A stretch of 34,492 nucleotides of DNA from positions 1 through 34,492 of the forward strand of contig JAPPIX010000309.1 in assembly GCA_028820495.1 (NCBI GenBank). The letters run 5' to 3'. The notes below the pieces were generated by a model. The model did no database searches and was not told the DNA's origin. It was given only the letters and a program-made list of their open reading frames with translations. Position numbers and translations under genes: made by a program. Below, piece after piece: positions 4,788 to 34,490 of the stretch. The first letter of the stretch is position 1. Each line of letters begins with the position of its first letter. The DNA comes from Gammaproteobacteria bacterium. GTDB lineage: Bacteria > Pseudomonadota > Gammaproteobacteria > Pseudomonadales > Azotimanducaceae.

Positions 4788-6845
4788 ATGCAAGAGGATT
4801 TTCTGCCGCACGATGTGTGGAACGAACTTGTCGAAGCGGCCGTCAAGAGAATCGTCGGGACGGGCGATCTTGACGGTTTTCTCGCTTGGTTCAGTGACGA
4901 GGTGAATCGGCAACGCCTGTTGGCGCGCCTGCCGCTGGAGGCAGGCAAGACGAAGGCCCTAGCCGTGCAGCTCGGCCGTTCGCTTTGGGGGGCAACCCCC
5001 GCGCCGCACAACGGTTTCAGGCCGCAGCCGCTGCCTAAGCCAAGCCGCAACGCACCGTGCTTTTGCGGCTCCGGCCTGAAGTACAAACACTGCTGCGCCC
5101 GCTTTTCGACCTTGCCAGCCATAAGTTCGGACGATCTCTGGCCAGCCGTGCTCGATGCACTGCCTCAGCGGGACTGTAGGCAACTCGTCGCGGTCGGACG
5201 CGCGCCCGTCGAAAGCCTCATCGATGCGGCCCACGAATCCAAGTTCCTGGGTGATACCCGCAAGGCCATCGGCTTCTTGGAGCCAATGTTCGCCAGCACG
5301 CTCGCCGGCACGGGGCACCAGTACGGTCGTGCCCTTTCATTGCTATGCGACCTGTACGGCGATGCGGGCTGGTCGCGGAAGAAGGCGGAACTGATCGAAC
5401 GGATCGTCGCGGAAGCGCCCCGATCCGAGTTGCGCTCCCTAGCCTTTCAGCGCATGGCCATATTGTGCATCGAACGGGGCGACCGCGACGGTGCTTGGGA
5501 GGCCTTTCGCCAGGCGCAGCGCGACACGCCCGGCGACCCGCTGATCGCCTTGCTGGAAATTCATCTTTTGATGGCCGAACACCAGCCCGAGCGGGCGCGG
5601 GAGAGCGCCCGCGTGTGGCGCAAGCGCCTAGGCAAGCGCAACGCCGAGGAAAACGACCGCGTGATCGCTTTCCTGACGGCGGCTGCTCAGGATCCCCACC
5701 GGGCCATGGCGGCAACGTTCAATGAGGCAACCGGCGGAGCGGGCCAACGGTTGCTCGAGGCGCTGCCGAACATCGTCAAGCGCCCGCTGCCCCGCTACGA
5801 AGTCGCTGCAGTGCCGGCGCTCGATCCGAGCGGCGAACTTGGGGCGGGCATCGCGAGGCAACTGCGCGGCATGGGCATAGCGGAGGAGGACGTCCGCGAG
5901 TTTGCGCCCGAACTGCTTGAACAGGCCCGGAGCTTGGCGCACGGTGACGGTTCGCCTGACGAGGTATCCGACGCAACCTCCGACGCGCATCTCACGCTCC
6001 AGGCACCGGAGCGGCTGCGGGTTCTGGAAGCCGACTGGCACGCCATCTATTCGCCCGGCAAGCCGTTCTCCATCAACGAAGTGCCGCGCCAAGCCGAGTT
6101 CCCTTGGGATCCCAACGAAGAGGATGCTTGGATGGGTTTCCTGGATCGTCATCCGGAAGCGTTCGACAGCATCGATGTCCTGGACGATCTCGCCACCGCG
6201 GTGGAGCTTCACCCGATGCGCAGTTCGGCGGGTTTTCGGGAAGCGATGCAGGTGCCCTTGGTCGAACGCGGCGTTCGCATCCTAGAGCAGGCCTTCGGCG
6301 AAGCCGGCCCGTCCGGCAACCTGTACTTGGAATGGGCCGATGCCCGGAACCGGCCTGTTTTGCGTTGCCTGGCGCGCGCCCAATTCCAGGCGATGGAGCA
6401 GGAGCATGTCGAGCGGGCACAGTACCTAGCGGAGCGCCTGATCGCGCTCAACCCCAGCGACAGCCACGGAATGAGGACCTCGCTCATGAATATCTACCTA
6501 AGAGCGGGCGACGACGAAGGAGCGGTTTTGCTAGCTTCGAGCTACGAGGACGACATGTTCCCGGAACTGCCCTACGGCCGGGTTCTGGCACTGGTTCGAC
6601 TGGGCCGGATGGACGAGGCGTCCGAAGCCGCCCAGCTTGCGGTGAACCGATTGCCGGAAGTGCGCCGTCACCTGATGCGGGAGCGGGCCCGCCAGCCCCG
6701 CATCGATCCATATGGGGTCGCGTTGGGCAGCAAGGAGCAGGCCTGGCTCTACCGGGACGAGATGCGCGACCTCTGGGTGGGTGAACCCGAAGCGATGGCG
6801 CTGCTTAGGCATACCCGGCCCTCGACCGGAACCGACGACGGCTAA
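4788..6845 (+). CDS. SEC-C motif protein with TPR-like helical repeats
   Basis: 685 residues from the ATG at 4788, which has GGGAAGCAGG upstream; the frame stays open 75 bp further left, but without a comparable ribosome site. Residues 84-104 form a SEC-C zinc motif, PCFCGSGLKYKHCC (CxCGSG...CC), as found at the end of SecA and in many uncharacterised proteins. The rest is a long helical repeat region with TPR-like pairs, for example AFQRMAILCIERGDRDGAWE and ALVRLGRMDEASEAAQLAVN. An acidic central part includes FPWDPNEEDAWMGFLD. It has no signal peptide or membrane segment. It probably acts as a cytoplasmic binding scaffold; the function is unknown. Confidence 0.85.
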   Translation: MQEDFLPHDVWNELVEAAVKRIVGTGDLDGFLAWFSDEVNRQRLLARLPLEAGKTKALAVQLGRSLWGATPAPHNGFRPQPLPKPSRNAPCFCGSGLKYKHCCARFSTLPAISSDDLWPAVLDALPQRDCRQLVAVGRAPVESLIDAAHESKFLGDTRKAIGFLEPMFASTLAGTGHQYGRALSLLCDLYGDAGWSRKKAELIERIVAEAPRSELRSLAFQRMAILCIERGDRDGAWEAFRQAQRDTPGDPLIALLEIHLLMAEHQPERARESARVWRKRLGKRNAEENDRVIAFLTAAAQDPHRAMAATFNEATGGAGQRLLEALPNIVKRPLPRYEVAAVPALDPSGELGAGIARQLRGMGIAEEDVREFAPELLEQARSLAHGDGSPDEVSDATSDAHLTLQAPERLRVLEADWHAIYSPGKPFSINEVPRQAEFPWDPNEEDAWMGFLDRHPEAFDSIDVLDDLATAVELHPMRSSAGFREAMQVPLVERGVRILEQAFGEAGPSGNLYLEWADARNRPVLRCLARAQFQAMEQEHVERAQYLAERLIALNPSDSHGMRTSLMNIYLRAGDDEGAVLLASSYEDDMFPELPYGRVLALVRLGRMDEASEAAQLAVNRLPEVRRHLMRERARQPRIDPYGVALGSKEQAWLYRDEMRDLWVGEPEAMALLRHTRPSTGTDDG

Positions 6846-6897
6846 GGAATCGACTGGCCAAACGGCTGGAGGAAGAAAGCGCCTTGGTCGCCAACCA

Positions 6898-7500
6898 TCA
6901 GGCCGGGGCCACTTTAACCGCCGCCAGGTTCCTGTCCTCCCGCCCGCGAGGTGGATTGGCTCTCCCCGGTCCCGGTTCTTCTCGGCATAGCCTCTTTCTC
7001 CCGTATCTGCTCAATGGCCTTCTCGGCCACCGAATCGCCGTTGCCCTGCCCATCAGCCATCTTGAACTCGAACACTTCGCCGCCGTGCAGCGCCGCCATG
7101 TCCGCCCGGCCCTTGCCTGAGGAGTCTTCCACCCGCAGGTCCAGGCCGATGGTGCGGAAGCAGGCGTAAAGCAAACCGGCGTACCATGCCTCGTGGCGGG
7201 CAGGACTGTTGGCGCCCTGCCAACGGTAGGGTGTTGCCGCGAAGAATGATCTGAGCCGATCAGCGAATCCCTCGAAGTCATTGGCGGCCCGCAGGCAGCC
7301 GAGTTCAATCCCTTGGTCCGCTGTCTCCTCCCTTCTGCCGGTGAGGTATCCCAGGAGCCCGTCGCTAAGGCTCTGGCGCACTTCGAGATTGGGATAGTCC
7401 AATTTGTACAGGGTTCTAGGGCCGCGCCTTTCCTCCGCAGCAATGGTCAGATACCCTGCAACCATGGATGAGTCCCAACGGGGCGGCAGTTGAACTGTGG
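6898..7500 (-). pseudogene. Frameshifted, 5'-truncated relic of an AAA-ATPase/PD-(D/E)XK protein (DUF1703 type)
   Basis: Read leftward from about 7500, the frame gives GYLTI, YKLDYPNLEVR, AAATPYRW-like, YAGLLYACFRTIGLDLRVED and GRADMAALHGGEVFEFKM, the C-terminal nuclease part (Asp...Glu-x-Lys) of DUF1703 proteins. Three breaks are visible. The N-terminal ATPase part is absent, since the match ends at the antitoxin operator. The frame shifts after EQIREK, with GYAEKNRDRGEPIHL continuing in another frame. It then shifts again, with REDRNLAAVKVAPA finishing in a third. The gene is dead, or at most encodes a truncated 183-residue product from 7465 to 6914. Confidence 0.75.
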
Positions 7501-7524
7501 TGACTGGTCATCAATACTAGTCAC
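7500..7524. promoter_or_regulatory. Inverted-repeat operator upstream of the Phd/VapC-type pair
   Basis: GTGACTGG at 7500-7507 and CTAGTCAC at 7517-7524 form an 8-bp inverted repeat with one mismatch around a 9-bp AT-rich spacer, ending two bases before the antitoxin ATG. Antitoxins of this class usually repress their own operon through such palindromes. Confidence 0.55.
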
Positions 7525-7526
7525 CT

Positions 7527-7763
7527 ATGGAACGTATCAATGCCTCCGATTTCAAAGCCCGCTGCCTCTCCATACTCGACCGCGTCAAATCAAGTGGCGA
7601 GCGAGTGGTCATCCTGAAGCGCGGCCAGCCCGTGGCGGAGCTTGGCCCAGCGACCCAATCGTCGGATCACTACCCCCAGCTGCGGTTGAAGGGCACCGTG
7701 ACCGTGGTGGGCGACATCGTTGGCCCGGTGGTCCCGGAGGATCACTGGGAAAGCAACCGTTGA
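7527..7763 (+). CDS. Phd/YefM-type antitoxin
   Basis: 78 residues. The N-terminal part (MERINASDFKARCLSILDRV, then GERVVILKRGQPVAELGP) is the Phd/YefM DNA-binding fold. The remaining 35 residues are the variable toxin-binding tail, including GTVTVVGDIVGPVVPED. It is expected to bind the downstream PIN toxin and the palindrome at 7500-7524. Its TGA shares one base with the toxin ATG (TGATG), a coupled arrangement typical of toxin-antitoxin pairs. Confidence 0.9.
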   Translation: MERINASDFKARCLSILDRVKSSGERVVILKRGQPVAELGPATQSSDHYPQLRLKGTVTVVGDIVGPVVPEDHWESNR

Positions 7764-11634: not shown

Positions 11635-12666
11635 ATGCTAAACGCCCTACCCCGCAACCTCGCCCGGGCGTACCGCGGCTGGAACGTAAAAGGCCGCGTA
11701 GCACGCTTCTCCGGATGGCTGGAAGCAAGCAAGCGGGCTGCTGACGACGGCGGAGACTACGACCACACCGAGACGGTCAACGCCTACTACGACCTATGCA
11801 GTGAGTTCATGCAGTTCGGCTGGAACGAGTCACTCCACTTCGCGCCGCTGACGCCAGACGAGACGCTGGAGGATTCCATCCTCCGCCATCAGCGCTTGAT
11901 GATCGACCGCCTGCAACTGCGCGAGGGAATGCGGGTTGTCGATGTCGGCTGCGGCTTCGGTGGGCCAATGCGTCGCGTGGCCCGCGAGTCGGGTGCGCGC
12001 GTCTTCTGCATCAACAACAATGGCCAGCAACTCGAAAAGGCCAAGCGTTTGAACGTCGCAGCCGACCTCGACCACATGGCTGAGTATCTGCAGTGCAGCT
12101 TCATGGACATGAGCGCCATCGAGGCCAACAGGTTCGATGGGGCATACGCGATCGAGTCCACATGCCATGCGCCGGACAAGCAAGGCGCATTTGCGGAGAT
12201 CTTTCGCGTCATGAAACCGGGCGCGTTGTTCTGGGGCCAGGAGATGTGCTTGACCGCTGCATTCGATCCCAACAACGGCTACCACCGGGCGGTCGAGAAA
12301 GACCTCATGCTGGGCATAGCGCTGCGCGAAATCGCCACGTTCACGGCCGTAAACAACGCGTTGGAGGCAGTGGGGTTCGAGATCGTCGAGGCGAGCGACC
12401 TCGGCGTGCAGGAAGGCCCGAGCACGCCTTGGTATCAGCCGATGGCGGGCCGTCGCGGCACCTTGAGGAGCGCCTTCCGCCGCACCCCTTGGGGCCGCAA
12501 AGCAATGATCGGCTCCCTGCGGCTGGCCGAAGCGCTTAGGGCCTTTCCACGTGGCTCAGCCGCAGTTGTGCAACTGATGGATCAAACGGCCGATGCGTAC
12601 GTCAAGGGAGGCGAGTCGGGGATCTTCACCCCGCTGTACTGTTTTCTGGCGCGCAAGCCCGGATGA
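11635..12666 (+). CDS. Sterol 24-C-methyltransferase-like (ERG6/SMT family) methyltransferase
   Basis: 343 residues, preceded by AAGGA. All four signature regions of eukaryotic SMTs are visible: region I at about 59-69 (MQFGWNESLHF; yeast has YEYGWGxSFHF), the SAM-binding region at 103-111 (DVGCGFGGP), region III at 171-180 (YAIESTCHAP; yeast YAIEATCHAP) and FDPNN at 210-214. The end at 329-343 (GIFTPLYCFLARKPG) matches the sterol-methyltransferase C-terminal domain. SMTs transfer a methyl group from SAM to C-24 of the sterol side chain. A bacterial enzyme could act on a self-made or host sterol or on another terpenoid lipid. Tocopherol-type methyltransferases are the nearest alternative but lack this C-terminal signature. 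It is co-transcribed with the RND pump. Confidence 0.85.
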   Translation: MLNALPRNLARAYRGWNVKGRVARFSGWLEASKRAADDGGDYDHTETVNAYYDLCSEFMQFGWNESLHFAPLTPDETLEDSILRHQRLMIDRLQLREGMRVVDVGCGFGGPMRRVARESGARVFCINNNGQQLEKAKRLNVAADLDHMAEYLQCSFMDMSAIEANRFDGAYAIESTCHAPDKQGAFAEIFRVMKPGALFWGQEMCLTAAFDPNNGYHRAVEKDLMLGIALREIATFTAVNNALEAVGFEIVEASDLGVQEGPSTPWYQPMAGRRGTLRSAFRRTPWGRKAMIGSLRLAEALRAFPRGSAAVVQLMDQTADAYVKGGESGIFTPLYCFLARKPG

Positions 12667-12838: not shown

Positions 12839-14857
12839 CTAAACAGGGTTCCTCACTTCCGCTACCCGCAACTTGAGCTTCCGGCTGGGGGCAGAGGTGG
12901 GGAAAGGGTTGATGCGGAGCCGATAGTTGTCGGGCTCGATCTCAAGATTGAGGTGGTGGGCGATCAGCAAGAGGTTCACCGGCACTTGCAGCTCCACCCA
13001 GCGGTGGCCGAGGCAAGTGTGGGTGCCTAAGCCATAGGGCGCATAGGCGCTCGACGTCGTTTGCTCCCAACGATCCGGCAGATAGCGGTCGATGTCGAAC
13101 CTCAGGGGATCGGGGAAGTGCTCAGGCGAATAGTGGCACGCGGTCTGGCATATCAACAGTTGGGTCTCAGCTGGCAACTCGAAGCCGTTGATCTCACAGC
13201 GGTTCATCACTGTCCGGAACTGCCAAGGGATCACCGGGTACATGCGCTCGGACTCAAGAAACAGCCGGTGGGTCACATCCATGCTGGAGGCGTTGAATTC
13301 CGCAGGCGCAGGCTCGCGTCCGTTGCCGAACAACGCATCGGCCTCGCGGCGAACGCCTTCGTAGATGTCCGGGTCGCTGACCATGGCATAAACCGCAAAG
13401 CCGAGCGCACTGCCGAGATAGATGCTTGCCACCATGGCGGCGACGAAGGGAAATGCGATATCTGTTTCGGGCAGGAGCTGCGGGTCCGATCGGTGCAGCT
13501 TCAGAATCGCGTCGGCGATGTCTGGCTCCAGGCCAGCGCGCTGGGCAGCGGTGTGCGATGCGTGAATCTCCCTAACCAGCCGCGGAATGTGATGGCGCGC
13601 CCGCCGCATCTTCGGTGTCTTAAGCATGAACTTGGGCAACGCCCCCATCACGTGCGTGATCAGGGCACGGTGTTCGTAGGCGATCAACTCTTCGCTGTAC
13701 TCGGAACAGTCCAAACTCATCACAAGGTGCGAGACCTGGCTGCTGATGTGGTCTTGGAAGGTGGCTGAAGCGCGAAACACGTCGCCCTGCTGCCAACGGC
13801 CGATGCTGTCCTTGCAGTGGCGGATGAGGTCCGGCAGCCGTGCCGTCAGACTCGCCCGTGAATAGGCACTGCGCAAGGACTTGCGCAACTTGTGATGTTC
13901 CGGGCCATCCGCACCCGGCAGGGTCCGAGACGCCCCGAAGATCTCCTCAAGGCCCTGAATGTAGTCCTTGGAGCGCAGATAGAAGCGGCCCTGTCGGTTT
14001 ACCCATTCATTAGCCTCCACACCGAGAACGGCAACGGTGCGCTTTCCGCCCCTGCGCATGGGCATTTCCACCACGGAACCGAACTCCTTGTGAATGCCGT
14101 GCAGTGCCTTGGGGATGTTGCCGGTGCGGAAATCTCGCTGCCGCCACAGGTCACGGGCTCGCAGCTTGGGGATTGGCTTGGCGGGCACGACGCGACGCGT
14201 CAGTGGTCGATAGGCGCTCTCCCGGACTGACTGGTACACCGATCGTCCGACTAGATCGAGTTGGGTGAGGGCCTCGATGCGATGGAGGCACTCGTCGTAC
14301 TCCTCCGGGGCAAGAACGAGGCGGAAGCCGTCGCAGGCATGCATGAGGCCAACCAAGATGGCATCCCTGGGATCTGGAATGTCGGGCTCGAAGAGCAAAT
14401 TCAGGATTCGAGCCTTGGCCTCCAATCGTGTCGTGCCGTCCTCGGCGGTGTAGGAGTGCGACCGCGAGACCGCAGGCGAGAGGGTCCAGAACCCGCCGGA
14501 CTCGTGGTCGAGGATGCCCTTTCGCTCCAGGCCGTGGAGCAATGTGTTGACGATTTCGTCGGCGCCGCTGGCTGCAATCCTCTCGATCCAATACTGGGCG
14601 TTGGCGCTGCGCTCGGACCCGCCGAGTGCTGCCAAGGTCGGGTCAAGCAATTCGTCTCCCGTTGGCGTTGAGTCGAGCACCCGCAACGAATCCAGATCGG
14701 TGTCGACGCGACCTTCGAGGGAGAGGCCGGCGATCACGGCGCCTGCCATGACGCAGGCGAAATCCCAGCCCGGGACCATCTCCAAGTAGCCGCTCTCCTC
14801 GTTGAGCATCAACAGCATCAACTCTTCGGCAAGCCGCAATTGAACTGCTTGTGTCAT
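12839..14857 (-). CDS. GPP34 (GOLPH3-like) domain-cytochrome P450 fusion
   Basis: 672 residues, with AAGGAG upstream of the ATG. Residues 1 to about 215 match GPP34: LRLAEELMLLMLNEESGYL, a GAVIAGLSLEGRV helix, PTGDELLDPTLAAL, a WIE...LERKGIL block and DPRDAILVGLMHACD, paralleling human GOLPH3 (APTGDVLLDEAL, LVEKGVL). From about 235 onward it is a P450: the C-helix region DGPEHHKLRK (317-326), ExxR at Glu535-Arg538 and the heme loop PYGLGTHTCLG with Cys615. The I-helix (about 470-492) reads VASIYLGSALG in place of AGxDT, so the usual acid-alcohol pair is missing. GOLPH3 binds phosphoinositide membranes, so this domain may hold the P450 at a membrane or lipid. It is last in the tolC-hlyD-P450 operon, 45 bp after the adaptor gene. 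Confidence 0.9.
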   Translation of the reverse strand: MTQAVQLRLAEELMLLMLNEESGYLEMVPGWDFACVMAGAVIAGLSLEGRVDTDLDSLRVLDSTPTGDELLDPTLAALGGSERSANAQYWIERIAASGADEIVNTLLHGLERKGILDHESGGFWTLSPAVSRSHSYTAEDGTTRLEAKARILNLLFEPDIPDPRDAILVGLMHACDGFRLVLAPEEYDECLHRIEALTQLDLVGRSVYQSVRESAYRPLTRRVVPAKPIPKLRARDLWRQRDFRTGNIPKALHGIHKEFGSVVEMPMRRGGKRTVAVLGVEANEWVNRQGRFYLRSKDYIQGLEEIFGASRTLPGADGPEHHKLRKSLRSAYSRASLTARLPDLIRHCKDSIGRWQQGDVFRASATFQDHISSQVSHLVMSLDCSEYSEELIAYEHRALITHVMGALPKFMLKTPKMRRARHHIPRLVREIHASHTAAQRAGLEPDIADAILKLHRSDPQLLPETDIAFPFVAAMVASIYLGSALGFAVYAMVSDPDIYEGVRREADALFGNGREPAPAEFNASSMDVTHRLFLESERMYPVIPWQFRTVMNRCEINGFELPAETQLLICQTACHYSPEHFPDPLRFDIDRYLPDRWEQTTSSAYAPYGLGTHTCLGHRWVELQVPVNLLLIAHHLNLEIEPDNYRLRINPFPTSAPSRKLKLRVAEVRNPV

Positions 14858-26881: not shown

Positions 26882-26980
26882 CGGAAACATGGGCCGGCAG
26901 GTTACGCCATCCTGGAAAAGCATCCCGACGGATACGTGGCTTATCCGCTGGCTATGGTGACAAAACTCCTAGTTTCCTAG
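26882..26980 (+). pseudogene. Possible fragment of a HicB-like antitoxin
   Basis: A short frame ending at TAG 26980 reads AGYAILEKHPDGYVAYPL, which resembles the first strands of HicB-family proteins (IEKxxDGYVA). No downstream helix or partner toxin follows, and the end overlaps the halogenase stop. It is too short to be certain. Confidence 0.25.
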
Positions 26981-28251
26981 TGGAAGCCGAGGCCTTGGGC
27001 CATCTGCGCGTAGCTGGTCAGGGGAAAGCCGCATCGACGATGCCAGTCCGCTTGGTCGATGTAGGCTTGGTTCATCAATTCGAACATGCCGTCAAACTTG
27101 CGCAGCGCGTCGCAACCCACGGCGTCCGGGTGCACGACGTCCCGATGTTGTGCCCATGCTTCGTCGCGGGCGTGACGCCAGAACTCGCTGTCAAATCTGG
27201 AACCGAGAGAGTAGTGCCACCCCACGAACAGGCCGCTGCAGAGTACGTTGTTGATCAAAAATCGATTGACCACCGCCGCGTCACGCTCAAGATGCTCGAT
27301 GGGACGGTCGAGCCGAATCTGCAGCACCATCCCGATCTGCAATTGGGCCAGCACGATGGCGGTCGCCTCCAGCGGCTCCATGAAGGCGACCGCGTTGCCG
27401 ACCCGGGCAATCGCGCCATCGAAGACTTGGCGGTGGACGAAATTCGGAAACGGTATCACGGCGCGCTGCTCAAACTCCGCTACGCCATCGGCTTCAAGCA
27501 GCGCGTCAAAGTCCGCCTCAACTTCGGCCAGGTCCGTGACCTCACGATTGAAGACATAGCCGTAGGAGGTGTGCACCGTCAATGGGATGACGAACACCCA
27601 CCCATGGGGGCGCGCCACCGCCCGTGTGTAGGTGTGCTGCGGCACAGGCTGCCCCGATTTCGCCTCGATGATCGCCGGGCAGCGTCGAATGATGGCTGTG
27701 TTGGTGGGGATGAAGGCAATGTCGATGTGCTCGTCGGGATGCGGTTCCTTGGGAAATCCACGCGCATCGAAGACCAAGTCGTAGCGTTCCGGCGCTCGGC
27801 CTTCGAATGCCACCTGCGCGCCGCCGTCCACCCTGGTGATGCTGCGCACCCTGGCATCAATGTGGCGAGCGTTGGTGGCCTCCTGCAGCAAGTCTCCCAT
27901 CACGTCGGCGGACAGGTGGTAAGCGTAAGACACCTCCTGCGGCGTGAAGTGGTGGATGAAGTCCCGATCGCGCCGCCCCCAACCCTCGAATGCGACGCCA
28001 TGCTTGCGGGTTCCGTTCAGGCGCTGTTGGATGGCCTCATGGGGCAGGCCGGTAAGCTGCTGCAACAGCGGCACCAAGGAAGGCCAACCGCCTTCACCCA
28101 CACCGATGACCGGGATCCGCGAGTCATAAATGTGGTGCAGTTCATGATCGCCATCGGGATGTTGGCGGGTCACGCTAGCCGCCGCCAAGGCGCCTGCGGT
28201 GCCTCGCCCGACAACGGCAATCTTCCGCAGGTGCTGTGCGCCTGATTGCAT
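26977..28251 (-). CDS. Flavin-dependent tryptophan-halogenase-like protein
   Basis: 424 residues, shorter than the usual 500-540. The FAD-binding motif is GRGTAG (15-20 region, IAVVGRGTAGALAA), followed by IGVGEGGWPSL (family VGEGTxP) and Lys83 in GTRKHGVAFEGW, at the place of the catalytic Lys79 of PrnA/RebH. GNAVAFMEPLEATAI contains a Glu (295) where the second catalytic residue is expected. The family WxWxIP motif appears as WVFVIP (218-223), with Phe for the second Trp. It should use FADH2, oxygen and halide to halogenate an aromatic ring. It is third in an operon with the LolA-like and barrel genes, 27 bp after the latter, beside a RiPP precursor ending in Trp, so a peptidyl Trp halogenase is likely. 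The flavin reductase must come from elsewhere. Confidence 0.85.
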   Translation of the reverse strand: MQSGAQHLRKIAVVGRGTAGALAAASVTRQHPDGDHELHHIYDSRIPVIGVGEGGWPSLVPLLQQLTGLPHEAIQQRLNGTRKHGVAFEGWGRRDRDFIHHFTPQEVSYAYHLSADVMGDLLQEATNARHIDARVRSITRVDGGAQVAFEGRAPERYDLVFDARGFPKEPHPDEHIDIAFIPTNTAIIRRCPAIIEAKSGQPVPQHTYTRAVARPHGWVFVIPLTVHTSYGYVFNREVTDLAEVEADFDALLEADGVAEFEQRAVIPFPNFVHRQVFDGAIARVGNAVAFMEPLEATAIVLAQLQIGMVLQIRLDRPIEHLERDAAVVNRFLINNVLCSGLFVGWHYSLGSRFDSEFWRHARDEAWAQHRDVVHPDAVGCDALRKFDGMFELMNQAYIDQADWHRRCGFPLTSYAQMAQGLGFH

Positions 28252-28278: not shown

Positions 28279-29595
28279 TCAGAAGCTGTAAGTGAAATCC
28301 ACGCCCACGAAGCTGTCGCGCCGTCCAGCGTAAGTCAAGTCCCGCGGATCCGACTGCAAGGGGATGATGGCTTCCAAGCGCATGGTCCAATTCTGCGAGA
28401 GATGGCGTTTCAGTTCCAGATTCAACGAACGCGCGTTGTGGCGCAAGTCACCGAGAATGCCGACCGCGGCCTCCGTGGTGCGCACGTCGTTGAGCGCCAG
28501 GAAGGCGGCGATGAACAGGTCGTTCGCCCAGATGCTCGGCGCACGGCGCCCGCGGTCATCGTAGAGCCACTCCGCGAGCACGGTCAAATCGGCCGACGAG
28601 CCAAACAGGCCGTGCAGAGAGCGTTCCAAGCCAAAAATGTAGGCTTGGTAGTCCTCTTCCTCACCAAGGAGATTGCTGGCGCCAGCCCGGTGAATGGCTT
28701 CGGTCTTGATCAGCCAAGGGCCGGTGGTGAGTTGCGCATCGATCCCGAATTGCCGAATTTGCTCATAGTAGGGGGTCAGGGACGGCTCTGTTACGGACGA
28801 CGGCCCGGATGGCTCGCCAATAAGGGAGCCCTCAGCTTGCCCCAGAGTGGCGCTCTGCTGATGCCGAAGCAACGACCTGCCAGCCAGTGGGTCGTCTGCA
28901 TTTGCCACTTGAAAGGCAGGTTCACGGCCGGTTCCGCGAAAGGCGCTCAGGCCAAGGTCCAGAATGCCCATGGCGTGGCTGTAACGGACCGCGAAATCCA
29001 CGTGCCGCTCTTCGGCGCCACTTTCATAGGCGGCGCTCTTGTCGATTGGGTGGCCCGAGCGAAGTCGCCCGCCACGCCCCGGAAATGTGCGCTTGCGGTG
29101 ATAGGGCAGCACGAACGCCTCAGCCATGCCCCAGTCTCCGGAAACCGTGAGATGCGCCATGGGTTGGCCAAGCTTGGGCCGATTGCGGGGGTGCTCGACA
29201 AGGTCCAATTGATTGACGACATCCACCAAGTTGTGCAACTCGGCCACGCCCCAGAAAACCCGGTCCAGCCCCAACCGCAGTTCCCAGGCGTTGTCTCCCC
29301 AACCGCCGTACATCAAGAAGTACGCCTCGCGCAGGTCTGCGTGCGTGCGCCTGGAATCGGCGCTGTCGTAGCGGTACAGCGGAGTGAAAGTGAAACTGGC
29401 GTTAGCGGCCAAATCTGCGTACAGGGTTGGCTCAACGACCATGCCGGCCGTGCTCGAACGCTGGCCCGGAAAGGCCGGCGAGCGCGGATACCATCGCCCC
29501 TGCAGGCTCAGGTCGCCGGAAAGGTCAAAGGACTGCGCCCCGGCTCCGGCGGCGACCAGGAGCGCGAGTGCCGCGAGCGCGCCGCCGCTGCGCAT
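28279..29595 (-). CDS. Outer-membrane beta-barrel protein (DUF1302-like)
   Basis: 438 residues from ATG 29595, which shares one base with the upstream stop (TGATG). A Sec signal peptide is visible (ALAALALLVAAGAGA, cleavage about residue 21). The rest is alternating amphipathic strands, for example LSLQGRWYPRSP and ASFTFTPLYRYDSAD, a conserved-looking RLGLDRVFWGVAELHNLVDVVNQ segment, and a C-terminal strand ending in Phe (DSFVGVDFTYSF), the outer-membrane assembly signal. It resembles the porin-like partners that accompany LolA-like and MMPL proteins. The role is probably lipid or small-molecule passage. An ORF extending to 29814 is ruled out by the signal peptide. Confidence 0.75.
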   Translation of the reverse strand: MRSGGALAALALLVAAGAGAQSFDLSGDLSLQGRWYPRSPAFPGQRSSTAGMVVEPTLYADLAANASFTFTPLYRYDSADSRRTHADLREAYFLMYGGWGDNAWELRLGLDRVFWGVAELHNLVDVVNQLDLVEHPRNRPKLGQPMAHLTVSGDWGMAEAFVLPYHRKRTFPGRGGRLRSGHPIDKSAAYESGAEERHVDFAVRYSHAMGILDLGLSAFRGTGREPAFQVANADDPLAGRSLLRHQQSATLGQAEGSLIGEPSGPSSVTEPSLTPYYEQIRQFGIDAQLTTGPWLIKTEAIHRAGASNLLGEEEDYQAYIFGLERSLHGLFGSSADLTVLAEWLYDDRGRRAPSIWANDLFIAAFLALNDVRTTEAAVGILGDLRHNARSLNLELKRHLSQNWTMRLEAIIPLQSDPRDLTYAGRRDSFVGVDFTYSF

Positions 29596-30431
29596 CAACG
29601 CATGCGTCGCAGTGCGGTGTGGGTGAATTCGCGGTCGTCGAGATCGGTGCCGAAGCGATAGTCCGTCCAGAGCAGTTCCGTGCGCGCGCCGGTCTGATGG
29701 TTCGCCATGGTCTGCTTGCCGGCCCGCCAAAACCGATCCTGGTATTGCTGATAGTCTTCGAAGGTGAGCGTTTTCACATGCATGCCCTTGCGGTCGTACA
29801 ACGCCACCTTCCAAGCTCGATACTCGCCCTCGTCCTGCCAGACCACCTTGCGGCTGTATCCGGACTTCGGGTCCAGCGGAACCTGTTCAGTCACCATGCA
29901 GGTCAACTCGCCACAGGGTTCATCGCGAAGATACCTGTGGCCGTATTCCTCCACTTCCGGGGAACTCATGTCCTCGAAGGTGAACTCGCTGCCCATGAAG
30001 GACCCGGCGCGTTTCGATGCGCTGATGCGCTTGACCCGCTTCAGAGCCGGCAGATAGAGCCATTGGTCGTCGTCGGCATTGGTGTGAACGTGGGTCAGCA
30101 GGGCGGTGCCCTGCACGTCTCGGGGCTGGTCGAACACGAACAGGCTCTTGTCACCCTCGCCCTCCCCCGGCGCCTCGAGCACCTTGAAGCGCATTTGGCG
30201 AATGCTCTCCCGACCGTGCCGATCATGCAGCACCATCGTCATGCCAGCGGTGAAACTCCCGAAACCGTCACTGCGCTCTCTCGATTCGAGCGCGATTCGC
30301 AGGCCTTTTTCCTCGGGCGTTTCCGCTTGGGCGAGAGGGGGTGCAAGCACCAACGACGCGATGCCCAAAACCAACGAGAAGGCGCACCGCCTTGAGGACA
30401 CCGGACGGAAAAGTGACTTTGTTCGGAACAT
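29595..30431 (-). CDS. LolA-like outer-membrane lipoprotein-sorting protein (TP0789 type)
   Basis: 278 residues from ATG 30431; the signal peptide at about 15-36 (CAFSLVLGIASLVLAPPLAQA) sets the start although the ribosome site is weak. The domain shows the half-barrel pattern of the LolA-like family: MTMVLHDRHGRESIRQMRFKV, DKSLFVFDQPRDVQGTALLTH, DDQWLYLPALKRVKRI and FMGSEFTFEDMSS. This branch usually stands beside an MMPL/RND transporter and a DUF1302 barrel and is thought to carry hydrophobic cargo across the periplasm. Here no MMPL gene is adjacent; the barrel and a halogenase follow. It diverges from the RiPP precursor across 198 bp. Confidence 0.8.
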   Translation of the reverse strand: MFRTKSLFRPVSSRRCAFSLVLGIASLVLAPPLAQAETPEEKGLRIALESRERSDGFGSFTAGMTMVLHDRHGRESIRQMRFKVLEAPGEGEGDKSLFVFDQPRDVQGTALLTHVHTNADDDQWLYLPALKRVKRISASKRAGSFMGSEFTFEDMSSPEVEEYGHRYLRDEPCGELTCMVTEQVPLDPKSGYSRKVVWQDEGEYRAWKVALYDRKGMHVKTLTFEDYQQYQDRFWRAGKQTMANHQTGARTELLWTDYRFGTDLDDREFTHTALRRMR

Positions 30432-30564
30432 CCGCGCAGGTTCGGTGATGGGAAAACAGCATTGTACCGTGATTCTCGGCAGAGCCGGTCGGTGAGTGGA
30501 TTGGGTGGCATGAAAGTGAGCAAAATCCAAAGTAGGCAAAATACTTGCGTTTACCGTGGCATCG

Positions 30565-30570: not shown

Positions 30571-30629
30571 CTTCACGCCAACGGGGGTTGACCCCGCTAA
30601 CGGTTCTTTCCGAGCGCAAGGAGACTAGG

Positions 30630-30881
30630 ATGAGAAGTGGCGATGAAATGTTGCAGCAGATTGTTGAGAAGTCGGCTTTGGATGACGACTTTCGCCAAGC
30701 GCTCTTGGCTAACCCAAAAGCGACGATCTGCGACGAGTTGGGCATCGAGATGCCCGAGTCGATGACGATTCAGGTTCATCAGAGCGACATGCAGACAGTG
30801 CACGTCGCGCTGCCGCCGGACCCGAACATTAGCGAGGAGCAACTCGAAGCGATTTCCGCTGGCCTGTGCTGCTGCTGGTAA
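30630..30881 (+). CDS. Proteusin-type RiPP precursor peptide (NHLP/Nif11-like leader, core ending CCCW)
   Basis: 83 residues; AAGGAG (30618-30623) six bases before the ATG fixes the start, although the frame is open to 30462. Residues 1 to about 78 are a leader of the nitrile hydratase-like/Nif11 type: EMLQQIVEKSALDDDFRQALLANPKATI, then CDELGIEMPESMTIQVHQSD and VHVALPP. The end reads EEQLEAISAG followed by Leu-Cys-Cys-Cys-Trp. The Ala-Gly before the Leu resembles the double-glycine-type cleavage site of such leaders, so the core would be only five residues. Three adjacent Cys suit thiazoline/thiazole formation by the YcaO enzyme, and the terminal Trp suits the halogenase. A GC hairpin follows directly. 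One further Cys (Cys34) lies in the leader. Confidence 0.88.
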   Translation: MRSGDEMLQQIVEKSALDDDFRQALLANPKATICDELGIEMPESMTIQVHQSDMQTVHVALPPDPNISEEQLEAISAGLCCCW

Positions 30882-31082: not shown

Positions 31083-32201
31083 TTAAAGAGGAAGCGCCCC
31101 CGAAAGCACCATGTAGATGTAACCCTTGGCCTGCTCCAGCCGATCTCCGGATACGACCAGCTTGATGTGGTGGATGCCGCTTAACATGATGAAGCGTCCG
31201 GTCTTGGCGAACAGCGTTGTCGGTTTCGAAGTCCAATCGCCAAGTGCCTGGATTTTCTCCGCAACCACCCATTCCTCCCCACGCAGGGCATCCAGCAGGG
31301 GCTGCCAATCAGTCAGGCCGTCGATCCAACTGCGGGGGTCGTCGGCATAACGTTGCTTGACGATTGGCGTCAGTCCGAGCGTCGGGCCAAGGCCCTCCGC
31401 CCCCACGTCAAGATTCAAGCCGGTTCTCTCAACTCCGGTGCGCTCGTTGAGGCGCGTCAGCGCGGCCTCGACCACCGAAAGGTCACCCGGCCAATGCAAG
31501 CGTGCCAGAAAGGCACGAACTTCCCCTGGCGTTTCGAAACCCATGACCGCCAAGCGAATGGAGCGTTCACGGGACGGGAATACGCCGAACGAATCCATGC
31601 GCGTGTCGTCAGGCTGCGCTAAGTAAACCCGCTGGACGTTCCGCCGTTCGTTGGCCAGCGCTTCCCAGCCGACACAGGCAACGAGGGCGTCAACCACGGC
31701 GCCGACATCCTGGTCAAGGCCGGCGCCGCCGAACAACGTTCGTTCGTTGGGGCGCAGAAACAATCCCGGCATCGAGCCGTCACCGTCCTGCGACGAACCG
31801 ATGTCATACTCCAGCATCAGCTTGCGCCCCACCACCTCGCGCAGCGCTGAGTTCCCGGCTTCCATTTCCGCGAACAGCCGCGTGATGGCTCTCGCCGTCT
31901 CATCCCCCTCCCCGCGGTGCGCCCGCTCCTCGAAGAAATCGCCCGACCGGTTGCCGCTGGCCAGCGAGGCGCCGAAATCCGCCCTTGGCCGGCGATCATG
32001 CAGCGGCAGCTCAAAGCCAAATGGCTGGGCACCCATGGTGATCGGGAGTTCCCTTGCGCAATCGAGCACGCGCTCCCATTCCCGCTCGCCGATCAGAGCC
32101 GACGAAATTCCACCCCTGAGGTGGCCGAGCAATTCGGCTAAGTCGGCACCTTCCTTGGCAAGGCGATCCTGGGTAACCGCGATGGCCTCAAAAATGTCCA
32201 T
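31083..32201 (-). CDS. Unrecognised RiPP-locus protein, partner of the YcaO enzyme
   Basis: 372 residues, with GAGGAG ahead of the ATG, starting 9 bp after the YcaO stop, so the two are surely co-transcribed. I do not recognise a family with confidence. It has no signal peptide or membrane helix, and few Cys. Visible features are an N-terminal helical part (TQDRLAKEGADLAELLGHLRGG), a middle part with GSMPGLFLRPNERTLFGGAGLDQD, a region with RLHWPGDLSVVEAALTRLNERTGVERTGLNLDVG, and a basic/hydrophobic end (SGIHHIKLVVSGDRLEQAKGYIYMVLSG). The pairing suggests a role in azole maturation, for example in place of the dehydrogenase or as a core-binding factor. That is inference only. Confidence 0.75.
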   Translation of the reverse strand: MDIFEAIAVTQDRLAKEGADLAELLGHLRGGISSALIGEREWERVLDCARELPITMGAQPFGFELPLHDRRPRADFGASLASGNRSGDFFEERAHRGEGDETARAITRLFAEMEAGNSALREVVGRKLMLEYDIGSSQDGDGSMPGLFLRPNERTLFGGAGLDQDVGAVVDALVACVGWEALANERRNVQRVYLAQPDDTRMDSFGVFPSRERSIRLAVMGFETPGEVRAFLARLHWPGDLSVVEAALTRLNERTGVERTGLNLDVGAEGLGPTLGLTPIVKQRYADDPRSWIDGLTDWQPLLDALRGEEWVVAEKIQALGDWTSKPTTLFAKTGRFIMLSGIHHIKLVVSGDRLEQAKGYIYMVLSGALPL

Positions 32202-32210
32202 ATGAGCTCC

Positions 32211-34490
32211 TCAGGCGATGACCGGCGCGGCGTTCAACTCGGATTCGGCCAGCGGCCGCGTTCGGTAGCCCATATTGACAGGAACGTCATACATGCGCCC
32301 GGATGCGAATCGCTCCCAAAAGTGACGCAGGCCGGGCACGATGACGCGCACAACCGGCATGCCGACATCCGGCCTGGTCTGGTCCAGCACCAGGAATTCC
32401 ATGCCCTTGGCTTCAACCAGCGCCCGGCAACGCTCCACGTCGTCACGCGTGTCCGTGGACTCAACCACCGGATAGTCCGAGCCCTGCCTGAGCGGCACAT
32501 CCGGTGCCGGCGCCAGCCAGGAGCAATCGCCGAGCCGGGCCGTCTTCCACCATTCAAGCGCCAGCGGATCGTCGATCATGGGCCGGCCGTCGCCCGCTCC
32601 TGGACGCGGCAGCCAAGTCAGGCACTGGTTCAACTCGCAAATCGCGCGCAGGGCCGCGATGCGCGCATCGGCATGGGCACCAGCGCCGTAGATGATGTCC
32701 TCGGTTTTCGCGTTCGGCCTGCGCGAGAGCGCGACGAACGTGGGAATGCCGATATCGGCCGTGACATCAAGCATCCACAGTTCGCGCTCGTAGCGGCTGT
32801 AGCGTTCCGTCGCCAAGGCTAGGAACTCGTCGTCGAAGCTGGCCAGATCGACCGCCGGCACGCTGAGTTCGTTGTACCACCAGATGGCGAAGGCATCACG
32901 CTCCACCAGTTCATGGAAACCTTGCAGGATGGCCTCCTCCAAGGTGTTCCCCGCCGCGCAGCCGTTGGAATCGGCAATTAGGTCGGCGGCGCCGCGCTGT
33001 TCCGCCGACATGCCGTAGAGCGCCGAAGTCGGCAGATACCGATGTCGCTGCTGGGTCAGCGACCACACGGGCGACCAGTCGATCCGGGTGTCGGGCTGCA
33101 GGCGCGGCGGAACGATGTTGTAGGGATGGCCCTTGGCGTTGATGCGGCCGGCGTTGTCGAGCTGATGGTCGCTGAACAGTTGCACCGCGTTGGGATGGAT
33201 CGCTTGGTCGTCCGGGGCAAAGTCAAGCAGCCGCTTGCGCTCGCGGATTTCGTCTCCATGCAGGGCGCCCGAATAGCGCTCCAAGGCCTCGCATAGCGCA
33301 CTGGCCTCCGACTGCGCCCCGGTGCTGCCCTTGCCCGCGCTCTTGCTGCGCAGGCTGCGCCGCAGCGAACTCAAGCTCCGGCTTCTCATGCCGAGATTGC
33401 TGCCCGCCCAATGGACGTGCAACCAGGAATCGGACTCATCGGTAGTGCGCTTGAGCCAGCTCACGACGCCGCTGACCGGGCTCACCAAGTGGCGATACTT
33501 CGCCAACGTGGCCTCTGGGGCCACCATCCGAACGCCGCCGCTGCCGTAGTGGGTTTTCGGGCTCGACTGCAGATGCACCGGAGCCGGCGGCCGATCCGCT
33601 CGGTGCAGCGCTTGGTCGCCGCAGGCCACGCATTGCGGCCGGCGCATCACGGCATGACGTGAACTTGCAAAGTCGCCGACATGCATGGCGATCGCATGGT
33701 CGTGGATCGGGGCTGCGTCTTCCAGCACCAGCCATTTAAGGATCTCCGCCGCGACCAGGCCATACAGCGCATCAAGCACCGATGGCTCGGTAGCGAACGC
33801 CTTGAAGGCGGCGTCCTCGCCCGCAATGTCGCGCAGGAAACCATGCACCTCCTGGTGGTTGCGCATGCGGCTGGTCAAGCAGGTCCAGCAAGGTCCCACT
33901 TGGTCTCCCCGAAAGACGGGTCCAAACAGCGGCTCAATGCCACGGGGCCGCACCAGCATCCAAGGGGCGCCGGCTTCGAGCTGGCGCCGATTCACCTCCT
34001 CAAGGCGGTCCTCGAGGTAACTCCCGCAGACGATCACGGTGAGCTCGGGGGCGGCGTTCTCGACCCGGGCACCCGAAGCTTCCAAGCGTCGAATCAACCG
34101 GCCATCGTCACCGGCAACCGCGACTCTCGAATTGGCCAGCCGTTGTTCGGCCCAACAGGGCGATGCGCCGAGGGAGGACCAGTAAGCGGCCCGGTTTCGC
34201 TCCATCCCGTGCTCGCCGGATACGACATAGCCCTTCTCCGAGAGCGCCGCGATGGCAGTTCGCACCTCCGCAGCGGCAAGGCGGCCCTCAAGGAGGGCGA
34301 CGATCTCCTCTTGATCCCGACTGCCGTCCAGCAATGGCAGCAAATCGCAGTGCAGCCTGCCGTGCAGAAGGGTATTGAAGGTTTCCGAAACCAACAGCAT
34401 CTGATTGGCGCCGATGGCATGGGCTTGCAGGTGGGGGGCAAGCGCTGGGCGGGCGATGCGCCCAACATCGGCGGGGGTCGTTCGCCGCAT
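32211..34490 (-). CDS. Fused TOMM leader-binding/E1-like and YcaO cyclodehydratase
   Basis: 759 residues from an ATG at 34490, two bases from the window edge, so a start further upstream cannot be excluded. Residues 1 to about 95 look like a leader-recognition winged helix (LLPLLDGSRDQEEIVALLEGRL, then RTAIAALSEKGYVVSG). About 115-300 is the E1-like part with zinc pairs CWTC (201-204) and CVAC (287-290). From about 310 it is YcaO: SAGKGSTGAQSEASALCEALERYSG (384-408) and SNGCAAGNTLEEAILQGFHELVERDA (508-533) carry the ATP/Mg-binding Glu and Arg residues. YcaO uses ATP to cyclise Cys (or Ser/Thr) to azolines. The C-terminus ends APVIA without the PxPxP tail common in such enzymes. It acts with the 372-residue protein downstream and most likely on the CCCW precursor. 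Confidence 0.92.
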   Translation of the reverse strand: MRRTTPADVGRIARPALAPHLQAHAIGANQMLLVSETFNTLLHGRLHCDLLPLLDGSRDQEEIVALLEGRLAAAEVRTAIAALSEKGYVVSGEHGMERNRAAYWSSLGASPCWAEQRLANSRVAVAGDDGRLIRRLEASGARVENAAPELTVIVCGSYLEDRLEEVNRRQLEAGAPWMLVRPRGIEPLFGPVFRGDQVGPCWTCLTSRMRNHQEVHGFLRDIAGEDAAFKAFATEPSVLDALYGLVAAEILKWLVLEDAAPIHDHAIAMHVGDFASSRHAVMRRPQCVACGDQALHRADRPPAPVHLQSSPKTHYGSGGVRMVAPEATLAKYRHLVSPVSGVVSWLKRTTDESDSWLHVHWAGSNLGMRSRSLSSLRRSLRSKSAGKGSTGAQSEASALCEALERYSGALHGDEIRERKRLLDFAPDDQAIHPNAVQLFSDHQLDNAGRINAKGHPYNIVPPRLQPDTRIDWSPVWSLTQQRHRYLPTSALYGMSAEQRGAADLIADSNGCAAGNTLEEAILQGFHELVERDAFAIWWYNELSVPAVDLASFDDEFLALATERYSRYERELWMLDVTADIGIPTFVALSRRPNAKTEDIIYGAGAHADARIAALRAICELNQCLTWLPRPGAGDGRPMIDDPLALEWWKTARLGDCSWLAPAPDVPLRQGSDYPVVESTDTRDDVERCRALVEAKGMEFLVLDQTRPDVGMPVVRVIVPGLRHFWERFASGRMYDVPVNMGYRTRPLAESELNAAPVIA

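Follow-up and report, generated by a model that had tools for sequence, protein, structure and literature searches.

The 34,492 nt stretch of DNA analyzed here (the window) lies on contig C63 of a draft genome of 5.1 Mb in 418 contigs. An open reading frame on its forward strand runs from an ATG at 30630 to the end of a stop codon at 30881, with a ribosome-binding-site-like AAGGAG (30618..30623, +; recognized by sequence) 6 bases 5' of the ATG. Its 83-residue product, ending ...NISEEQLEAISAG-LCCCW, divides into a leader (residues 1-78, ending AISAG) and a core (LCCCW, residues 79-83), and the precursor ending AISAG-LCCCW that the original prediction placed at 30630-30881 is thus found at exactly that position. 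The product matches the leader_NHLP model TIGR03793 with 66.5 bits (cut-off 50.9; E 1.4e-18) over residues 6-78; the model ends at Gly78, so LCCCW alone remains after it. There were zero Nif11-family matches in NCBIfam and Pfam: of the "NHLP/Nif11-like" leader first proposed, the NHLP part stands and the Nif11 part has been discarded.

A proteusin precursor with an LCCCW core, as originally called, is also what the literature describes: SrpE, from the Agarwal group, is a sponge-microbiome proteusin with this same core (PMC10286304, PMC10858898, as far as these cover it). We regard it as close to certain that 30630-30881 is the srpE gene of srp, a RiPP cluster of sponge symbionts. Among the related SrpE records, a sponge is named outright by Spongia_Bin9 (L094) only. 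The founding paper of the srp cluster is reportedly that of Nguyen et al. (JACS 2021).

A scan of the GTDB collection, one genome per species, with leader patterns lying outside the core yielded 74 loci confirmed by tblastn, at 72 of which SrpE is present at 72% identity or more and reaches residue 82. With relatives at 74 loci and a conserved core, the idea of a chance open reading frame was dropped. The 72 loci, six more from relatives (L005-L010, some of them the same genomes), and the window were aligned as 79 rows. Seventy-five are full length, and these comprise 71 distinct nucleotide sequences, all with at least 70% identity; rows below 70% (paralogues and NHLP fusions) were left out of the core count. 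The original prediction looked for conserved Cys and Trp at the C-termini of close precursors, and no free variation is seen there: the core is LCCCW in 70 of the 71 and LSCCW in one (L006/L039), with L79, C81, C82, and W83 each in 71/71 and C80 in 70/71 (one Ser). Of the four shorter rows, two run into contig ends and show LCCC, and the other two are fragments of 44 residues with LCCCW at the end. Because the search patterns were confined to the leader, they placed no demand on the core. Many leader positions are variable, and all three stop codons are used (TAA 35, TAG 32, TGA 4). Leader residues 66-72 read NISEEQL at the window locus, unlike the NLTEEQL reported for published SrpE, in which L67 and L72 form an L(X)4L motif in the account available; the window copy has I67 and L72, and position 67 is Ile in 70 of the distinct sequences and Met in one. 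By record title, the SrpE loci come from Proteobacteria, Acidobacteria, Gemmatimonadetes, Nitrospinota, and Chloroflexi, among many groups, although single phylum labels are of limited trust, since nearly all of the records are metagenome bins.

A few loci carry further precursors. At two of them a second one lies about 3.5 kb from srpE, with a WCCCGN core in one case (L082:4282-4527) and WCCCGQ in the other (L088:4465-4710). Precursors with RCCCCA cores occur twice at a non-SrpE locus (L106) and once at L107, which shares a single contig with an SrpE locus (L077).

Both tailoring genes that the original prediction named in the neighborhood were recovered by profile matches. The YcaO gene, srpC (32211..34490, -), encodes a 759 aa fusion of leader-binding and cyclodehydratase parts (PF02624 305 bits, TIGR03604 270.6, TIGR03882 132); a run of Ns begins 3 bases past it on the contig, and its start codon is provisional. 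It is present at 51/72 SrpE loci, counting up to 8 kb on each side. The second, srpI (26977..28251, -), encodes a 424 aa brominase of the Trp-halogenase family (PF04820 154.6 bits). Lys83 is invariant in SrpI copies (38/38), and is taken here as the published catalytic Lys84, the two being equated by position rather than by comparison with a published sequence.

The YcaO chemistry on the three Cys and the halogenation of the terminal Trp that had been predicted are both already in print. According to the parts of the srp work available, the YcaO enzyme SrpC converts the Cys of LCCCW to thiazolines, giving a partly modified mixture in E. coli, and bromination at indole C6 of the terminal Trp is the work of SrpI and requires an attached leader (PMC10286304, PMC10858898); thiazoline formation and Trp-6 bromination have been demonstrated for other SrpE copies (PMC10286304). 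As far as it is described, the published srp locus is like that in the window in its NHLP precursor, identical LCCCW core, YcaO SrpC, and Trp-6-brominase SrpI. The precursor, its core, and the Cys and Trp chemistry are therefore not new.

The original prediction went further, to an oxidized, tri-azole peptide with a (halo)tryptophan at its end, the work of a YcaO system of two genes with 32201-31083 as the second half. The YcaO and halogenase genes are indeed present. However, the published modification is to thiazolines, at least in the sections at hand, and azoline oxidase and nitroreductase families had no match among the 27 window ORFs scanned, so azole formation was discarded; nor is there a YcaO pair, SrpC itself being a TIGR03882-TIGR03604 fusion and 32201-31083 being predicted to fold as an ABBA protein and not as a YcaO partner. 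A tri-azole product is thus extremely improbable.

A constant place for srpI beside srpE was also discarded, since srpI is within 8 kb on either side at 40/72 loci. Of 29 SrpE genomes without a local copy, 22 have a near full-length one elsewhere (one with an internal TAG) and one has a fragment; at E 1e-30 no SrpI was found in 6 of the 29 searched, including a chromosome-level assembly (L048/G101). Four of these six have another match to the Trp-halogenase family, as does the genome of L106. In the chromosome-level case, the srp locus has an LCCCW core, and the different Trp-halogenase-family match is some 0.28 Mb away, if the coordinate systems agree.

Two genes between srpI and srpE encode outer-membrane type proteins. 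One is a LolA_like protein of lipoprotein-sorting type (29595..30539, -; PF17131 203 bits), given here as the longest ORF, with its true start probably later, and found at 25/72 SrpE loci; the other is DUF1302-like (28279..29595, -; PF06980 18.4 bits, below the cut-off) and found at 17/72. Transporters occur within 8 kb of srpE on either side as C39 type (25/72 loci) and NHLM type (47/72). On a separate contig, C282, the window genome has a C39 peptidase-transporter copy (79% identical), next to which a second ABC protein is encoded. LahT is a peptidase of the C39 type. In the srp work, as far as it is described, a chimeric leader was removed from the modified LCCCW core with LahT150. The C39 peptidase-transporters or NHLM-type ABC proteins at SrpE loci, together with the C282 copy, make cleavage of SrpE after AISAG plausible.

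Two terpene-type enzymes went unrecognized in the original prediction; one of them lies outside the window. The gene within the window (31083..32201, -) is convergent with srpE and encodes a 372 aa protein, here called X372. It has no match in Pfam or to YcaO-partner families, and a sequence search of the PDB gave 0 matches up to E 1. An AF2 model (pLDDT 91, pTM 0.90) was built on 46 aligned sequences (alignment A1: the window and 45 of 60 extracted, the window's own copy being among the 60). All 50 of the 50 Foldseek matches listed for it against the PDB are ABBA prenyltransferases: the best is a 6-dimethylallyl-tryptophan synthase (E 7.4e-6), and PriB, TleC, CymD, and the RiPP enzyme PagF are also listed. 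TM-scores to these ABBA enzymes are moderate (0.40-0.57 by query length; rmsd 6.2-10.6 A). X372 is accordingly predicted to be an ABBA-fold protein of prenyltransferase type.

Residues E64, D75, D133, R211, R216, K316, H345, K347, K359, and Y361 are kept in 10/10 homologues chosen to span 27-85% identity (alignment A4), and the Arg, Lys, and His among them are candidates for diphosphate binding, assigned by sequence conservation rather than by mapping onto ligand structures. A tyrosine shield is usual in ABBA prenyltransferases; judging from the conserved residues, none is evident in X372. Some ABBA proteins, PatF for example, are inactive. The gene is local at 57/72 SrpE loci, and at 55 of these 57 it is convergent with srpE at a distance of no more than 400 bp. 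Its homologues are not confined to Trp-containing precursors: they stand beside the Trp-free RCCCCA cores at L106 and L107 (41-43% identical) and, in genome G014 (36-37% identical), beside the Trp-free cores VCQC, LCACM, and GGECIC. The family is therefore not Trp-specific, and X372 could act otherwise.

In G014 (L110, on C21), two X372 paralogues adjoin three proteusin precursors, each with a short Cys core, and neighboring genes at 5978-7660 resemble what, by eye, we take to be a DUF692/DUF2063 pair. Elsewhere, a divergent X372 homologue (29% identical; L112, G136:C147) lies near genes that, again by eye, resemble those for an ABC protein of NHLM type and for a second halogenase.

The second gene lies 2.5 kb past the window end (C63:36982-38283, equivalent to L108:10983-12284; -). 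Its 434-residue product joins an NHLP leader domain to what is predicted to be a class II terpene-cyclase domain. Between it and a 100-base N gap on the contig lies a fatty-acid-desaturase/AlkB-type gene with a C-terminal GlnE-like stretch (C63 ~34.7-36.9 kb, L108:8700-10927; -; PF00487 92 bits, PF03710 31 bits), a type of gene found at 37/72 SrpE loci. The N-terminus of the fusion scores 44.3 bits with the NHLP leader model, under the cut-off of 50.9, and the L(X)4L motif is absent from this domain. Alignments were made of 36 of 48 extracted fusions (A2) and of 25 of those 36 (A3), and a structure was modeled on the L034 copy rather than that of the window genome; the best of five models has a mean pLDDT of 79.6 (65-69 for the others), with much of the NHLP part below 60. 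Foldseek matches to the C-terminal part of this L034 model are led by drimenol synthase (E 3.2e-11), followed by squalene-hopene cyclases and MstE. A profile match to drimenol synthase (1.2e-7) sets the fusion's DLDST over its DLDTT. A PDB entry titled D333N has DLNTT at the aligned place, so that by alignment, residue numbering aside, the corresponding Asp fits the catalytic one. Full-length copies (n=42) have DLDST in 36 cases and DLDSS in six, and Q..DG.W, presumably a QW-type motif, is also kept in the alignment. With both an alpha/alpha toroid fold and an acid motif of DXDD/DXDTT type found, the C-terminal domain is predicted to be a class II terpene cyclase. The drimenol synthase AsDMS and MstE share this fold and motif but, unlike the fusion, have no NHLP domain (the AsDMS chains are named as HAD-family in the PDB). 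No paper on fusions of NHLP domains with terpene cyclases was found in the library searched, which is incomplete.

In a set of 97 relatives (own genome included), SrpE is present in seven; X372 orthologues (at least 54% identity) are in exactly those seven, and the fusion is in the same seven plus one other (G004), in the assembly of which SrpE and X372 were not found. Fisher tests over the 97, uncorrected for relatedness, give 8e-11 for X372 with SrpE and 6e-10 for the fusion with SrpE. In the wider set, the fusion is local at 47/72 SrpE loci and was found in 20/23 further SrpE genomes searched (a search of 26 handles that also took in L051, L070, and the non-SrpE locus L106), and X372 was found in 11/13 further SrpE genomes searched. 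The fusion was not found in SrpE assemblies L037, L055, and L098, nor X372 in L055 and L098. In the genome of L106, with RCCCCA cores, an X372 homologue is present, but no SrpI was found at E 1e-30 and no fusion at E 1e-20.

These distributions bear on a rival account, in which the pathway ends as published, with a leader-free tris-thiazoline bromo-Trp pentapeptide; X372 would then be a dead ABBA protein or a chaperone or partner of SrpC, and the fusion would belong to an unlinked terpenoid step. Thiazoline formation and bromination alone have been demonstrated in the srp literature, to the extent available; X372 homologues accompany Trp-free cores; and the cyclase gene here lies ~6 kb from srpE rather than next to it, past srpC and the desaturase-type gene. 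The confinement of X372 orthologues to the SrpE-bearing relatives, and of the fusion to those and G004, argues the other way, as do the NHLP domain, which ties the cyclase to proteusin chemistry, and the acidic motif kept in 42/42 copies of the fusion. A polyprenyl synthase within an operon of genome G046, of the same family, speaks against this account as well, and we consider it unlikely.

The G046 operon holds, on one strand within 4.1 kb (L109:6396-10472), two proteusin precursors, an X372 homologue (28-30% identical), a cyclase, and the polyprenyl synthase (PF00348 185 bits). The precursor cores include Tyr, His, and Arg, and the cyclase has a DADDT motif and no NHLP domain. The presence of a prenyl-diphosphate synthase in this run is the best evidence that the X372/cyclase pair works with isoprenoids on proteusins. 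The same genome has eight tandem proteusin precursors at another locus (L114, G046:C1:3010528-3013990), the cores seen being rich in His and Tyr.

Our preferred reading, to which we give a probability of roughly 0.55, is that this is srpE of the srp cluster and that its product is a short bromo-Trp, tris-thiazoline peptide carrying a cyclized terpene. The early steps would be those in print for SrpE, as far as they are described there: thiazoline formation from the Cys of LCCCW by SrpC, and bromination of the terminal Trp at indole C6 by SrpI with the leader still attached. X372 might then attach an isoprenoid to the modified core. Once all of the Cys are consumed as thiazolines, the Trp indole is the sole nucleophilic side chain left. 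The NHLP-cyclase fusion would protonate and cyclize the core-bound isoprenoid, perhaps brought into the same enzyme assembly by its NHLP domain acting as a dock, and an NHLP-type C39 peptidase-transporter might finally cut after AISAG and export the core. For the terpenylation step by itself the odds seem about even. The particular form in which srp is a peptide-terpenoid hybrid, with an ABBA prenyltransferase acting on LCCCW and a cyclase recruited by its fused NHLP leader domain, is more tentative, with chances a little short of that.

Ribosomal peptides that bear terpenes are already known, with a direct precedent in NctPC: as far as its source covers it, an ABBA prenyltransferase is there fused to an MstE-like cyclase, and the Trp of a ribosomal peptide is geranylgeranylated and the chain then cyclized (PMC13290415). 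The NctPC/ChrPC systems are like the one proposed here in having an ABBA prenyltransferase domain and an MstE-like cyclase, acting on Trp in NctPC; as described, they differ in that both domains are in one protein, whereas srp has separate genes with the cyclase fused to an NHLP leader domain, and in that the srp core is also thiazoline-modified and brominated. The terpenylated peptides of NctPC/ChrPC are said to come from Hubrich et al. (Chem 2024). The mpp cluster offers another parallel in MppC, a leader-dependent ABBA prenyltransferase encoded with an SrpI-like brominase, although in the accounts available it differs from srp in its Nif11 leader, lanthionine chemistry, and geranyl at indole C5 (PMC12715784, PMC11791876). 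The word "cyclase" is absent from the main text of PMC12715784, and that of the srp paper PMC10858898 contains none of the words "prenyl", "terpene", and "cyclase".

The order and site of these steps could conceivably be different. The cyclase might come first, with free farnesyl or geranylgeranyl diphosphate as its substrate, and X372 then transfer the cyclic terpene, or X372 might prenylate a Cys sulfur or the terminus rather than Trp. Drimenol synthase, the best structural match, was solved with free diphosphate, and relatives of X372 stand beside Cys-rich, Trp-free cores. Against this, MstE, among the next best matches, was solved with prenylated dihydroxybenzoates; the order in NctPC is prenylation and then cyclization, in the portion of its description at hand (PMC13290415); and conversion of every Cys to thiazoline leaves SrpE without a free thiol. 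We find such variants distinctly doubtful, and prefer prenylation of the core by X372 followed by cyclization.

Novelty rests on the inferred terpenylation, the SrpE precursor itself being known. No report of srp terpenylation was found in the literature searched (an incomplete library), and no mature srp compound is named in the cited srp literature, in the parts available. What would be new relative to NctPC is that the two enzymes are separate, that the cyclase carries a leader domain, and that the peptide also has thiazolines and bromine. If X372 and the NHLP-cyclase are indeed part of srp biosynthesis, a search aimed just at the bromo-thiazoline peptide would overlook the srp product; what opens up is the identity of the natural product, with predictable exact masses that could be sought in sponge extracts. 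Calculated [M+H]+ values for the free core are 573.1771 as the tris-thiazoline, 651.0876 with 79Br as well, and 787.2128, 855.2754, and 923.3380 with Br plus a C10, C15, or C20 isoprenoid, respectively; cyclization would not alter them. The leader domain would in that case be an enzyme docking domain and not a substrate tag, a new use of RiPP leaders.

Further from srpE, the window also contains a gene whose product joins a cytochrome P450 to a GPP34 domain (12839-14857, -; PF05719 116 bits, PF00067 105 bits), adjoined by one for a sterol-type methyltransferase (11635-12666; PF08498 61 bits).
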